From positions 1-36,504 of the forward strand of contig JACQFF010000251.1 of the NCBI GenBank assembly GCA_016200205.1: a stretch of 36,504 nt of DNA, given 5' to 3'. Below are positions 1 to 26,572 of this stretch, in pieces (positions within the stretch are counted from its first letter, which is position 1; every line of letters starts with the position of its first letter). The stretch is from Planctomycetia bacterium. GTDB lineage: Bacteria > Planctomycetota > Planctomycetia > Pirellulales > PALSA-1355. The notes beneath the pieces are model-generated. The model was not told the DNA's origin, made no database searches, and saw only the letters and a list, made by a program, of their open reading frames with translations. A program made the position numbers and the translations under genes.

Positions 1-179
1 CCTGGACTGGGGCGGTACGTCGAATCCATGCCGGTAGACTACCGTTTTGGTTTTTCCACTACCGCAATTCTCCGCAGAAAACTGCAATTCTTTGAAACGA
101 CTTGAAAATGTACCCGCGTGGTGTAAAATGCCGATATTGCTCGGGAAAATGGGCCTATTTTGGTTGGTCTCGGTTTTGA
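1..179. other. AT-rich segment left of the tRNA half
   Basis: No convincing gene is visible here. The segment is plainly richer in A and T than the rest of the window. A short hairpin, CGGTA-GAC-TACCG at about 32-44, is followed by T-runs and could end a gene lying to the left. GCAATTCT occurs twice (about 64 and 83), as does CTACCG (about 39 and 58). Short direct repeats next to a tRNA-type attachment site are often integrase arm or Xis sites, but that is only an inference here. Confidence 0.35.
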
Positions 180-221
180 TTCGCAATGCAGAGGTCGAGG
201 GTTCGACTCCCTTCCGCTCCA
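180..221 (+). tRNA. 3' half of tRNA-Ala(CGC), 5' half absent (attachment-site remnant)
   Basis: Read as tRNA positions 32-73, the segment fits without gaps: anticodon loop TTCGCAA (U33, anticodon CGC, A37), 3' anticodon strand TGCAG, variable loop AGGTC, T-stem GAGGG/CCCTT with loop TTCGACT, acceptor strand CCGCTCC and discriminator A. The U at position 70 would give the G3-U70 pair that marks alanine tRNAs. CCA is not encoded. The bases just upstream (TTTGA) cannot form the 5' anticodon strand CTGCA, and no D-arm or acceptor 5' strand lies within 75 bases, so the gene is a half. A half beginning at the anticodon loop and keeping its own downstream terminator is typical of the distal att site of an integrated element. 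Confidence 0.6.
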
Positions 222-228
222 CTGGGTT

Positions 229-265
229 TGCCCGCTGATAGAGAATGCCAGCGGGCATCTTTCAT
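229..265 (+). terminator. Rho-independent terminator behind the tRNA half
   Basis: A perfect 9-bp stem, TGCCCGCTG (229-237) with CAGCGGGCA (249-257), encloses an 11-base loop and is followed by TCTTTCATT. It lies 7 bases beyond the tRNA discriminator base, so it is probably the native terminator of the original tRNA-Ala gene. Confidence 0.6.
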
Positions 266-10157: not shown

Positions 10158-11153
10158 GTGACGACTGCTGAAATCCGCAAAGCGGCCGTGGTGTTGATGA
10201 GTCTGCCGCAAGAGCAGGCCGCTCAACTATTGTCCAAGCTCCCTCCGCGGCAGATCGAAGCCGTGGCGACCGAGATCGCCAAGAGCCGTTCGATCACGGC
10301 CGAGGAGCAGCAATCGGCCATTCTCGAATTCGCCGACGCCGATCCTCAAGCGACCGACGGGGGCAGGGGCGGATTCGACATCGCCAAAACGCTCGTGGAA
10401 AAGGCGCTGGGCAATGCCAGCCGCGCGCTGGATCATATTCGTCAATCGATCGACCCACCCCCCTTTGGATTTCTGCGGCACGTCGACGCCCGAGATCTAT
10501 CGGCGTTTGTCGTCGACGAGCATCCGCAGACGATTGCGCTGGTGCTCTCGCACTTGCCGGCGTCGTATGCGGCCGCGATTGTCCCGAACTTGGCCGACGA
10601 GCGACAATCCGCCGTGCTGCGACGGATTGCGGCGATGGGTGAAGTCCATCCGGAAATCGTTCAGGAAGTCGCGCACTTGCTGGAGCGGCGGATGGCGCAG
10701 GTCATCTGCCAACAATTCGACAGGGCCGGCGGCGCGGCTGCCGTGGGCGAAATTCTCCACGAAACGGATCGCGCGGCCCGGCACAGGGCACTGGAGAATT
10801 TGGCGCGGGAAGATCCCGAATTGGCTGCCGAGGTCCGCGGCGGGATGTTCGAATTCGCGGATATCGACAAGTTTTCGGAGCTGGATATTCAGACCATCTC
10901 GAAGAACGTCGATAGCGGGCAATGGGCCGGGGCCCTCGCGGGAGCCGACGACGAACTCAAACAGAACGTTCTCGGCAAACTTTCGTCCCGCGTCCGAGAG
11001 TTGGTCGAAAAGGAGACGGAGCGACTGGGCCCCGTGCAGCTCGCGACCATCGAGCATGCTCGGCGACAAATCGTCGACATCGTCCGCCGACTGCACGACG
11101 CCGGCGAGATCCGCATGCGATCGGTCGCCGAAGCCAACGAATTCTTCCACTAG
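10158..11153 (+). CDS. fliG: Flagellar motor switch protein FliG-like
   Basis: A 331-residue cytoplasmic protein, the full length of FliG. The N-terminal domain starts RKAAVVLMSLPQEQAAQLL (7-25), the middle domain carries the conserved EHPQTIALVLSHLP (121-134, the FliM-binding EHPQR-type motif with T for R), and GGAAAVGEIL (191-200) and DPELAAEVRGGMFEFADI (219-236) match the hinge before the C-terminal domain. The C-terminal torque domain has the charged helix around DDELKQN...SSRVRELVEKE and ends ARRQIVDIVRRLHDAGEI. FliG couples the MotA stator to rotor rotation. No other flagellar gene is near, so it is an orphan copy. GTG 10158 is preceded by GAAGG at 8 bases. FliG2-type paralogues outside flagellar operons are known in several phyla. 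Confidence 0.85.
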   Translation: MTTAEIRKAAVVLMSLPQEQAAQLLSKLPPRQIEAVATEIAKSRSITAEEQQSAILEFADADPQATDGGRGGFDIAKTLVEKALGNASRALDHIRQSIDPPPFGFLRHVDARDLSAFVVDEHPQTIALVLSHLPASYAAAIVPNLADERQSAVLRRIAAMGEVHPEIVQEVAHLLERRMAQVICQQFDRAGGAAAVGEILHETDRAARHRALENLAREDPELAAEVRGGMFEFADIDKFSELDIQTISKNVDSGQWAGALAGADDELKQNVLGKLSSRVRELVEKETERLGPVQLATIEHARRQIVDIVRRLHDAGEIRMRSVAEANEFFH

Positions 11154-11373
11154 CGGCGTCTCTCAATTAGGGGCATCGTAGTCCGGCTGCCCCAGCCAGC
11201 TTGCTGTCTGGGTCGCGACAAGAGGACGAGGGACCACTTCCGGTAGCCTGTTGTGGCTTCGGCACCGCGACAACAAGTTGTCGGTCGCCGCCCTCGAGGC
11301 AATCGCGCCGCGGCCTCCTCCCGTTTCGCCGCACGTTCTGTTAGCATGCGACTCCAAAAGCGGAGAAAATCGC

Positions 11374-13980
11374 ATGTCCGTCTCGCCCATGATGCAGCAA
11401 TACCAGGACGCCAAGGCCGCGTGTCCCGATGCGCTGTTGCTGTTTCGGATGGGTGACTTTTACGAGATGTTTCACGACGACGCCAAGACGGCTACCCGCG
11501 TGCTCAATTTAGCGCTGACCAGCCGCGAAAAGGGCGACAATCCCGTTCCCATGGCCGGCTTTCCCTACCATCAGTTGGAAAGCTATCTGGGCAAACTAAT
11601 TGCCGCCGGGCTACGGGTCGCGATCTGCGATCAGATGGAGGACGCCAAAGCAGCCAAGGGTCTGGTGCGCCGCGAAGTCACGCGCATCGTCACCGCCGGA
11701 ACCGTCACCGACGATGCGCTGCTCGATCCGCGGGCCAGCAATTACCTGGCGGCCGTGGTGCCGGCGGGCGATGTGTCGGGCCTGGCCTGGGTCGAGCTCT
11801 CGACGGGTCGGTTTCATGCGGCTTGCTTTCCCACGCCGCGCATCAGCGACGAACTGGCGCGGATCAGCCCGGCCGAATGCCTGGTGAGCGAAGACGCGCA
11901 ATTGCCGGCAAATTCGCTGGACGAGGGCCCGATGATCACCCGCCGGCCGGCTTGGGCCTTTTCTTTAGACACCACTCGAGACGCATTATTAAACCACTTC
12001 GGCACCTCCAATCTCGAGGGCTTTGGATTCGCGGACGGTGACGGGCCGGCGATTCGCGCGGCCGGCGCCGTGCTGGGCTATCTGATCGAAACCCAAAAAG
12101 CGTCGCTGGGGCACATCGACACGCTGGGGCACTATTCGGCCGGAAACACACTTGAGATCGACGCCGCGACCAGGCGCAGTTTGGAAATCACCTGCACGCT
12201 GCGCGAAGCTCGCCGCGAGGGATCGCTATTGGGCGTAATGGACCGCACGGTGACGGCGATGGGCTCGCGCCTCTTGGCCGACTGGCTGGCCGATCCGCTG
12301 ACCGACATCGCCCGCATCGATGAGCGGCTTGACGCGGTCGCTGAATTAGTCGCGGATCCGATGCTGGCCAACGCATTGCAAGATCAGTTGCGCGGGATTT
12401 ACGATCTGGAGCGGTTGTTGGCGCGCGTGACGACGGGGCGAGCCAGCCCGCGCGACCTGAGCTTCGTGGGCCGCACGTTGCGAAGCTTGCCGCCCATCAA
12501 GGCCAAGATCACCGCCCGGCGCAGCGTGTTGCTCGCGCAGCTCGAAGAGCAGCTCGATTTGTGCTGTGAGGTCCGCGCTGGGCTGGAAAAAGCCCTGGCC
12601 GATGAATGTCCGCTGGTCAGCCGCGAAGGCGGTTTTATTCGCGAGGGCTTTTGCGGCGAGTTGGACGCCCTGCGCGAATTGATGAGCGGTGGCAAACAAT
12701 GGATTGCCCAATACCAGGCGGAAGAATCGCAGCGATCCGCGATTCCGAGCCTGAAAGTTGGCTTCAACAAGGTCTTTGGCTATTACCTGGAAATCACCAA
12801 CACTCACAGCTCCAAGATTCCGGCCCACTACATCCGCAAGCAGACGGTGAAGAATGCCGAGCGTTATATCACGCCCGAGTTGAAGGAGTACGAGGAACGG
12901 GTGCTCTCGGCCGATGAGAAGTCGCGGGATTTGGAATACAAGTTGTTTCTCGACTTGCGCGAGATGGTGGCTGAGTCCGCCGCTCGGTTGCAGCGGACCG
13001 CCGCGGTGCTCGCGCAACTCGACGTGCTCGTGTCGCTGGCCGAATTGGCTCGCCATCGGGCCTATTGCCGGCCGACGATGATGGCTGAATCGGTGCTGCA
13101 CATCAACGATGGCCGGCATCCGGCTCTCGACGCGCTAGTGGCCGAAGGATCATTCGTGCCCAACGACGTGAAGTGCGGTGCCGAGGACGGGTTTTCGCTG
13201 TTGGTCACGGGCCCCAACATGGCCGGCAAGAGTACGTTCATTCGCCAGGTGGCGCTGATCACACTGATGGCGCAGGTCGGCAGTTTCGTGCCGGCGCGGC
13301 ATGCCACGATCGGGATTGCCGATCGGATTTTCGCCCGGGTCGGCGCCAGCGACGAATTGTCGCGCGGTCAAAGCACGTTCATGGTCGAGATGATCGAAAC
13401 GGCGCGCATTCTCAACACGGCCACGCCGCGAAGCCTGGTGATCTTGGACGAAATCGGCCGCGGAACCAGCACGTATGACGGACTGTCGCTGGCCTGGGCC
13501 GTGGTGGAATACCTGCACGACCGGGTCGGCTGCCGCACGCTGTTTGCAACGCATTACCACGAGTTGACGACCCTGGCCGGCTCGCTCGGCGGATTGCGAA
13601 ACTTGAACGTCGCGGTGCGCGAATGGCAGGACCAGGTCGTGTTTCTGCACAAAATCTTGCCCGGCGCCGCGGACAAGAGCTATGGCATTCACGTGGCCCG
13701 GCTGGCCGGTGTGCCGGGGAACGTGGTCGAGCGGGCCAAACAGATCTTGGCCCAACTCGAAAACGAACATCTCGACGCCCAAGGCCAGACGACGCTCGCC
13801 CGGCGAAGCAAGAAAATCAAAAGCGCCGATTTGCAACTGACGCTATTTGCTCCGCCGGAACACCCACTGGTAGGCGAGCTGCGAGAATTGAAACTCGACG
13901 AAACGACGCCCCTGGCCGCGCTGCTTTGGTTACAGCAATGGCAAGCCCGCGTCAAAGGCGATCGAGCTCAACCCGATTGA
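11374..13980 (+). CDS. mutS: DNA mismatch repair protein MutS
   Basis: An 868-residue MutS1 of standard length. It recognises mispaired bases and small loops and recruits MutL. The mismatch-reading Phe-x-Glu motif is in MGDFYEMF (F29, E31). The core and clamp domains occupy roughly 250-570. The ABC-type ATPase has Walker A TGPNMAGKST (612-621), the MutS signature DELSRGQSTFMVEM and Walker B DEIGRGTSTYDG (692-703), then FATHYHEL. The frame is open back to 11251, but ATG 11374 begins the conserved SPMMQQYQ.AK start and follows CGGAGA at 8 bases. It stands 220 bases behind fliG, and its stop is only 4 bases from the facing stop of the halogenase-type gene. Confidence 0.97.
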   Translation: MSVSPMMQQYQDAKAACPDALLLFRMGDFYEMFHDDAKTATRVLNLALTSREKGDNPVPMAGFPYHQLESYLGKLIAAGLRVAICDQMEDAKAAKGLVRREVTRIVTAGTVTDDALLDPRASNYLAAVVPAGDVSGLAWVELSTGRFHAACFPTPRISDELARISPAECLVSEDAQLPANSLDEGPMITRRPAWAFSLDTTRDALLNHFGTSNLEGFGFADGDGPAIRAAGAVLGYLIETQKASLGHIDTLGHYSAGNTLEIDAATRRSLEITCTLREARREGSLLGVMDRTVTAMGSRLLADWLADPLTDIARIDERLDAVAELVADPMLANALQDQLRGIYDLERLLARVTTGRASPRDLSFVGRTLRSLPPIKAKITARRSVLLAQLEEQLDLCCEVRAGLEKALADECPLVSREGGFIREGFCGELDALRELMSGGKQWIAQYQAEESQRSAIPSLKVGFNKVFGYYLEITNTHSSKIPAHYIRKQTVKNAERYITPELKEYEERVLSADEKSRDLEYKLFLDLREMVAESAARLQRTAAVLAQLDVLVSLAELARHRAYCRPTMMAESVLHINDGRHPALDALVAEGSFVPNDVKCGAEDGFSLLVTGPNMAGKSTFIRQVALITLMAQVGSFVPARHATIGIADRIFARVGASDELSRGQSTFMVEMIETARILNTATPRSLVILDEIGRGTSTYDGLSLAWAVVEYLHDRVGCRTLFATHYHELTTLAGSLGGLRNLNVAVREWQDQVVFLHKILPGAADKSYGIHVARLAGVPGNVVERAKQILAQLENEHLDAQGQTTLARRSKKIKSADLQLTLFAPPEHPLVGELRELKLDETTPLAALLWLQQWQARVKGDRAQPD

Positions 13981-25366: not shown

Positions 25367-26572
25367 ATGCGACAAGTTCGCCTCGCGGGGTTGGCGCTCG
25401 TCGGCTGGACACTGGCTGGCGGCATCTCATGGGCGCAATCGGACAGTCTGGCCCCGCTGCTCAAGACGATTCGCGAAGTTGGTCCCGAAGGTAAAGGCAA
25501 TCTCGCGGCAAGCCAGGCCTGGGCGGAACTCGCGGCCCGCTCCGACGCCGATCAGTTGCCCATGATCTTGGGAGCCATCGACGGCGCCAGCCCTCTGGCC
25601 GCCAATTGGCTGCGTTCAGCGTTCGACGCCGTTGCCGAACGACAGGCGCGCAAAGACGGCAAGCTGCCCATCGCGGAGTTGGAGAAATTTCTTCACGAGC
25701 GTCAACACAACTCACGTGCTCGGCGTTTAGCCTATGAGTGGATCGCCCGCAATGATCTGACGGCGCCCGACCGGCTGATTCCGCAAATGCTCGATGATCC
25801 CAGCCTGGAACTTCGTCGCGACGCCGTGGCTCGCGTCTTGATGGCCGCGGAAAAAGCGTCGGCCGAACAAAACATCGATCTGGCGATGTCGAGTTATCGC
25901 AAAGCTTTGGGCTCGGCGCGCGATTTGGACCAAATCAAGGTGGTGACCGAGGCGCTCAAAAAGCTCGGCCAGCCGGTCGACCTGGCTCATCATTTTGGAT
26001 TCCTGTTGGATTGGAAGCTGTTGGGTCCGTTCGATAATCATCAAGGCAAGGGATTCGAAGTGGCGTATCCGCCGGAGGCGACGATCGATGTGGCCGCTTC
26101 GTATCCGGTACAGAGCGGAAAAATTCGTTGGAATTCGCACCACACCAGCGATGAATACGGCATGGTGGACTTGAACAAGGCGATCGGCAAGCACATGGGC
26201 GCGGTGGCGTATGCCGTGGCCGAGTTCCAAAGCGACAAGCCGCGGCCGATCGAATTGCGGCTAGGATCGGAAAGTGCCAACAAGATCTGGCTCAACGGCG
26301 TGCTGCTTTCGACGGCCGAGGTTTACCATGCCAACGGCACGATGGATCAATACGTGGGGCGTGGCGAGTTGAAGGCGGGCAGAAACGTGATCCTGCTGAA
26401 AATCTGCCAAAACGAGCAAACCGAAACATGGGCCCAGGATTGGAAATTTCAATTGCGCGTTTGCGACGCGACGGGTAAGGCGGTGCTGGCCACCGATCGG
26501 CCCGCGCCCCGCGCTGGCGACAACCAAACAGCAGCCAATGAATCAACCAGCCCCAACGGGCCCAAGGAGTAA
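25367..26572 (+). CDS. Exported protein with helical repeats and a beta-sandwich domain
   Basis: A 401-residue protein with a signal peptide (1-23, ending SWA before QSD). Residues about 30-200 are helical and repeat-like (LPMILGAIDGASPLAANWLR, RLIPQMLDDPSLELRRDAVA), resembling HEAT units. From about 215 the sequence becomes a beta-sandwich type found in planctomycete exported proteins: WKLLGPFDNHQGKGFEVAYP, PIELRLGSESANKIWLNGVL and GRNVILLKICQNEQTETWAQ. This pattern resembles galactose-binding-like domains fused to enzymes, but no catalytic residues are recognised. ATG 25367 follows GGAG and starts the signal; the upstream open frame from 25127 overlaps the dioxygenase and is not used. The stop is 4 bases before the next gene's GTG, and its ribosome site lies in this gene's last codons, so the two are translationally coupled. 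Confidence 0.75.
   Translation: MRQVRLAGLALVGWTLAGGISWAQSDSLAPLLKTIREVGPEGKGNLAASQAWAELAARSDADQLPMILGAIDGASPLAANWLRSAFDAVAERQARKDGKLPIAELEKFLHERQHNSRARRLAYEWIARNDLTAPDRLIPQMLDDPSLELRRDAVARVLMAAEKASAEQNIDLAMSSYRKALGSARDLDQIKVVTEALKKLGQPVDLAHHFGFLLDWKLLGPFDNHQGKGFEVAYPPEATIDVAASYPVQSGKIRWNSHHTSDEYGMVDLNKAIGKHMGAVAYAVAEFQSDKPRPIELRLGSESANKIWLNGVLLSTAEVYHANGTMDQYVGRGELKAGRNVILLKICQNEQTETWAQDWKFQLRVCDATGKAVLATDRPAPRAGDNQTAANESTSPNGPKE

Follow-up and report, generated by a model that had tools for sequence, protein, structure and literature searches.

Known tRNA-borne elements

Islands borne by tRNA genes are classic mobile elements, and a clade of integrases is often tied to one site. The elements described here resemble the anticodon class of Islander (site A), in which a tyrosine integrase is likewise combined with an intact tRNA at one end and a displaced 3' fragment at the other. 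Recombination within the anticodon loop, tandem arrays, and target switching are shared as well (PMC4383910). Planctomycetes do not occur in the text of that paper, whereas here a single integrase clade with conserved att arms uses at least 22 anticodons.

Pseudomonas ICEclc differs from the planctomycete elements in being a large conjugative element in tRNA-Gly, while the latter measure 8.5-15.2 kb. Its promoter Pcirc sits at the end opposite the integrase and acts in the circle. Pcirc is listed at position 102,729 as the promoter of intB13 (PMC2892462), and its arrangement is the one proposed here for the planctomycete tail, where the promoter is predicted from sequence.

PICIs, HE-PICIs and capsid-forming satellites share with the planctomycete elements a small size, an integrase at one end, a replication gene and, in one planctomycete case, packaging genes. 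They differ in that only L102 among the planctomycete elements has a small terminase, an HK97 capsid protein, and a head protease. A repeated motif in the attP of HE-PICIs was read by the authors as possible arm sites (PMC10111431). The integrase clades of HE-PICIs keep one attB (PMC10111431), whereas planctomycete clades mix tRNAs. The tycheposons of Prochlorococcus, compared here by their description in PMC10872708, are also cargo elements with a tyrosine recombinase at several tRNA genes, but belong to another host phylum and have another range of tRNAs, with seven tRNA genes reported for them in that description.

The kind of element, a tRNA genomic island, is already known. The planctomycete family is new and previously unnamed, and the open-access literature searched holds nothing on point about planctomycete integrases, genomic islands, or satellites.

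The displaced tRNA-Ala(CGC) half

The window, which is the whole stretch of 36,504 nt analysed from a Planctomycetia bacterium of the order Pirellulales, is an entire contig of a 328-contig draft genome, and its position 1 is therefore an assembly break. Its left end is almost certainly an attR. Very probably, positions 1-221 are the attR of a tyrosine-integrase element in tRNA-Ala(CGC), belonging to a Planctomycetota family of fixed architecture whose tail may carry a promoter for the circular form. As an attR it is ordinary, and the element family to which it belongs is unusual and widespread. The features of the locus are compiled in Table 1.

Table 1. Annotated features of the left end of the window.
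Feature	Position	Strand	Basis
Element DNA, uncharacterised	1..28	+	Starts at contig end; remaining element off contig
Conserved element tail (attR/P' arm)	29..164	+	BLAST and model R1; tails beside tRNA 3' halves in relatives
Palindrome CGGTAGACTACCG, putative arm-type protein binding site	32..44	+	Recurs, co-varying, at integrase end of complete relatives
Extra half-site TACCGC	60..65	+	31-37 of 36-38 tails per column conserved
Candidate protein sites: three TTGCAA-like repeats (CTGCAAT, TTTGAAA, CTTGAAA) in phase, spaced by 9-10 nt	82..107	+	Inference
Outward sigma-70-like promoter TTGAAA-N16-TAAAAT toward tRNA half; putative circle-activated integrase promoter	102..129	+	Sequence
Displaced tRNA-Ala(CGC) 3' half, tRNA positions 32-73; crossover in anticodon loop	180..221	+	Relatives' intact genes
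Displaced host terminator of tRNA gene	229..257	+	9-bp stem 229-237/249-257; similar one in G049

The half reads TTCGCAATGCAGAGGTCGAGGGTTCGACTCCCTTCCGCTCCA and comprises the loop residues T32 and T33, the anticodon CGC (182-184), a T-arm of GAGGG-TTCGACT-CCCTT, an acceptor strand of CCGCTCC, and A73 at position 221. Its assignment in an earlier note on this DNA holds, as all 42 nucleotides are identical to intact tRNA-Ala(CGC) genes in related genera. In many relatives, tRNA-Ala(CGC) genes that ARAGORN confirms have these 42 nt, with zero or one mismatch, as their 3' half, and in nearly all of them the identity starts at window position 180. Since the intact genes of relatives contain the identical 42 nt, the half is not degenerate. 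It also has T at position 70, as in G3:U70 alanine tRNAs, in agreement with the remark in the note that U70 suits an alanine tRNA.

The remainder of the gene is absent from the assembly. A run of ARAGORN on the window gave no tRNA, and the best ungapped match to the matching 5' half within it (20/31) is noise. In the draft genome the half (41 nt) is single-copy, a matching 5' half was not found even when 3 mismatches were allowed, and an intact tRNA-Ala(CGC) is absent. When the same genome was searched for the other end of the element with both tRNA halves, the integrase, and the pattern of the attL arm, no tRNA-Ala locus was returned either. The left flank (1-179) is AT-richer, as had been noted, with a GC content of 0.48 against 0.60 overall, and only 0.6% of 179-nt stretches are as low. 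An Rfam search of positions 1-800 for introns or other RNAs yielded chance matches only; the one with the lowest E-value, in which the T-arm was taken for tmRNA, is spurious. A group I intron was tried as a candidate and rejected, as neither a covariance-model match (Rfam) nor an upstream 5' half (genome search, up to 3 mismatches) was found.

The note's account of the terminator after the half, with its perfect stem, is a little generous. The stem does have 9 perfect pairs, but the T-run at 258-263 is weak (TCTTTC). In the relative G049, a similarity of 85% extends over 180-265, from the half through a similar terminator, which there lies behind an intact gene. This similarity past the half is expected if positions 222-257 are the displaced original 3' flank. 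The host chromosome runs on rightward past the terminator. An empty-site test via the ortholog of the first chromosomal gene showed that the closest relative has no tRNA upstream at that place. Further right of the border lie FliG (10158-11153) and MutS (11251-13980), which are ordinary chromosomal core genes.

A conserved tail beside many tRNA halves

BLAST of the left flank revealed matches of 71-75% in four contigs, three from the only other congeneric genome searched and one from another family. Each of the four matched tails ends at a different tRNA 3' half, namely Leu, Arg(TCT), Phe(GAA), and His(GTG). From five tails, that of the window included, a sequence-only covariance model termed R1 was trained, which within the order matches 50 of 397 genomes. 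At 29 of the 30 best R1 loci the tail adjoins a tRNA 3' half that starts at or near the anticodon loop, and many different tRNAs are represented. The window itself has an R1-type tail beside a tRNA 3' half; it is part of the training set of R1, while the BLAST match to G001 (E 3e-10) is independent of the model. The homology of the flank to tails abutting the 3' halves of other tRNAs substantiates the proposal that position 180 is the far border (attR) of an element lying to the left.

Across 38 aligned tails, conservation is strongest in the palindrome, the TACCGC half-site, the phased TTGCAA repeats, a TTGCAA/TTGAAA hexamer located 16 nt before TAnAAT, and CTCGGGAAA. The last of the TTGCAA-like repeats in the window, CTTGAAA, would double as the -35 element. 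The tail model provides a simple probe for mobile-element ends in planctomycete genomes. On viral contigs R1 has zero matches.

Complete elements in relatives

Seven complete elements of 8.5-15.2 kb were reached from the tail side, each with an intact matching tRNA at the other end (Phe, Ala(GGC) in three cases, Asp, Val, and Met). Their order is constant: an intact tRNA, an attL arm of about 122 nt, a tyrosine integrase, cargo, the tail, and the 3' half of the same tRNA. The integrase (PF00589) reads into the element and is truncated in the copies of L053 and L091. The longest tRNA run common to both ends comprises 28-45 nt and starts at tRNA positions 30-34. An exception is L094, where one mismatch shifts the start of the shared run to 47. 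For the Met element 12 nt are shared, as the fetched stretch stops within the half, and the full 43/43 was obtained from the integrase-side search.

In the attL arm, a palindrome CGGTAnnTACCG lies at +80 to +82 after the tRNA and recurs in the tail. Within one element its two copies change together, both reading AATCCGGTA in L094 and CGGAA/TTCCG in L164. Co-varying palindromes at both ends point to one protein binding both arms. We infer that the palindromes are arm-type sites for the integrase or a partner, and the integrase is the most likely candidate for the protein acting on both arms.

With this architecture, the origin of the locus can be outlined. A tyrosine integrase would insert the element into the anticodon loop of tRNA-Ala(CGC), so that the element comes to lie left of position 180. 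The chromosomal 5' half would thereby receive a fresh, element-borne 3' half (attL, off the contig), and the original 3' half with its terminator would be left behind at 180-257. The complete relatives, in which the intact same tRNA and the integrase are found at the other end, uphold the earlier proposal of an integrase mechanism that rebuilds the complete gene there. The note had named as one refuter relatives with the same half and the same left flank in which an integrase is lacking, a combination that did not occur among the relatives. Its reading of an integrated element with an attR is thus supported, though it was understated.

Integrases and their tRNA targets

An alignment of the integrases was scanned against 84,980 genomes, giving 368 relatives, of which the best 80 were analysed; these are planctomycetes as far as the records state. 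An intact tRNA lies upstream in 65 of the 80 loci, at a distance of 112-156 nt (204 in one case, median 122), and 21 anticodons are represented. In the 9 others for which enough upstream sequence is available, a tRNA 3' half takes that position. Among the best 80, a tRNA or a tRNA 3' half thus precedes every one of the 74 Planctomycetota integrase loci whose upstream sequence is long enough. In L154 and L120, the half before the integrase is itself preceded by a tail, revealing tandem elements. A matching half with an identity of 98-100% was found 7.3-10.7 kb downstream in 6 of the 65 (halves of other tRNAs mostly reach 0.45-0.7). All six downstream ends, which were located without the tail model, match R1. 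The seven complete elements from the tail side and the six from the integrase side overlap in part.

The solved-structure relatives of the integrases are only Xer-like and integron recombinases, which match the catalytic end, and no curated NCBIfam model matches the family at its cut-off. Distant relatives occur on viral contigs, where a bare tRNA 3' half often precedes the integrase. In two of these contigs, L192 and L213, the palindrome is present on both sides of the bare half in an attP-like arrangement (circular or tandem form). The near-integrase palindrome is also found on the far side in 2 of 22 viral relatives versus 4% in controls, a difference too small to extend the pattern to others than L192 and L213.

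The genome of the window has further members of the family. Integrases are located behind tRNA-Val(TAC), Lys(CTT), Arg(CCG), and Gly(CCC), and the integrase end of the window's own element is off the contig. Two further loci are remnants. C145:9357-10745 (L099, L109) is a 1.3-kb relic whose contig end falls exactly in the anticodon loop of tRNA-Phe; the tRNA-Phe 3' part is followed by an attL arm, a broken integrase, a tail, and a degenerate tRNA-Phe half. In C177 (about 25505-25700, L275), tRNA-His(GTG) is followed by an attL arm, the integrase is gone, and this tRNA keeps a 3' flank of foreign origin. Together, these are six further family loci in six other tRNAs, with tRNA-Ala(CGC) of the window being the seventh, and none of the six represents the opposite end that the window's element lacks on its contig. 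With Lys(CTT) of this genome, which is part of the tree set, added to the 21 of the survey, at least 22 anticodons are targeted. Within one phylum, a conserved pair of ends thus goes with at least 22 different tRNA targets, seven of which occur in this single genome.

Switching of tRNA targets during integrase evolution was already stated in the Islander paper (PMC4383910), and the HE-PICI study reports the opposite tendency, with integrase clades keeping one site (PMC10111431). In a tree of 63 planctomycete integrases, which is a quick tree with many open forks and therefore firm only for close pairs, the tRNA target needs 43 changes, compared with 50 (47-53) for shuffled labels and a minimum of 21. 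Among the close pairs, integrases of 88% identity use fMet(CAT) versus Pro(TGG), or two different Pro tRNAs. The range of targets within one clade with conserved arms seems to be the new part. A tentative explanation, to which we give somewhat less than even weight, is that the integrase recognises the element by its conserved symmetric arms and the core merely as a tRNA anticodon stem-loop, and could be re-aimed by swapping the 43-nt half. If this is true, almost any tRNA would be reachable within a short evolutionary time. The elements offer a natural matched set of integrase, arms, and core, with which a change of target in tRNA-targeting integrases becomes directly testable.

The outward promoter-like site

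The promoter-like site in the tail, which points towards the tRNA half, is present in 30 of 38 tails versus 2.2 in shuffles. This count is circular in part, since all five training tails of R1 have the promoter. None of 64 attL arms contains such a site, and it is kept in only 1 of 18 more distant relatives from viral contigs. Circularisation would join the tail to the half, the attL arm, and the integrase, all in one direction, and the tail promoter would then drive the integrase in the circle. The site is proposed to serve the integrase because, in the integrated state, nothing promoter-like is present in the attL arm. Most simply, then, formation of the circle would turn the integrase on. 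A circle-activated integrase promoter is the slightly favoured function of the site. At the level of sequence the arrangement is of the Pcirc type, with the promoter facing outward at the end opposite the integrase and none before the integrated integrase.

Alternative explanations

The same site could be read differently, with the tail having no part in recombination and serving instead, as an outward promoter or as a regulatory RNA, in the expression of the tRNA half or of host genes downstream. The outward orientation in most tails is in line with this, but the most conserved part of the tail is the palindrome, which has a co-varying counterpart at the integrase end, and in the window a terminator follows the half. 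Folding of positions 120-275 as RNA shows no excess stability (z 0.24). We regard this function as unlikely. Somewhat less doubtful, yet still improbable, is a decayed relic, of which tail and half are left and the complete element to the left is gone. Such decay has precedents in the same genome, in the C145 remnant with its broken integrase and in the integrase-less attL arm behind tRNA-His in C177, and the assembly has no integrase beside any tRNA-Ala. The half of the window is nevertheless identical to intact genes at 42 of 42 positions and its tail is well preserved, unlike the degenerate half of C145.

The contig end lies 179 bases from position 180 in a fragmented draft, and C145 likewise ends within an anticodon loop, as might be seen if an assembly error had fused unrelated DNA to the tRNA gene in a chimeric contig. 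Independent assemblies of other species, however, join the tail to tRNA halves at the same point, which makes a chimera highly improbable. The anticodon loop is also the usual site of tRNA introns, and the break lies exactly there. Positions 1-179 could accordingly be the 3' end of a self- or protein-spliced intron in tRNA-Ala(CGC) whose 5' half is off the contig. Yet there is no Rfam group I or II match, the tail recurs beside many different tRNAs, and the other end in relatives has an uninterrupted tRNA 8.5-15.2 kb away, followed by the integrase. The probability of an intron is negligible, and the attR of an integrated element is the reading retained here.

Cargo and other islands in tRNA-Ala(CGC)

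The cargo of the relatives varies. A DnaB-type helicase is encoded in L086 and L089, and a D5 primase in L098. Among the scanned proteins of the 8.5-15.2 kb elements no conjugation genes were seen. The 10.8-kb element in tRNA-Met (L102:9134-19960) encodes DUF3987, a small terminase, an HK97 capsid protein, and a head maturation protease, genes by which it resembles a capsid-forming phage satellite, here with a planctomycete host. The tRNA-Phe element L053:4537-14586 has cargo that by eye resembles heavy-metal efflux genes. Beside a tail in L054 (1194-4166, minus strand; G020:C23) lies a gene for a 990-aa protein with no Pfam match, which by eye recalls family-B DNA polymerases.

Islands of 1.5-12 kb with an intact gene and a displaced half are also present in tRNA-Ala(CGC) of G006, G007, G040, and G025 (L029, L030, L031, and L032). 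The tail was not found in these four islands, with R1 run on G006, G007, and G040; other element families therefore use this tRNA too. In the island of G007, the terminator is duplicated along with the half.
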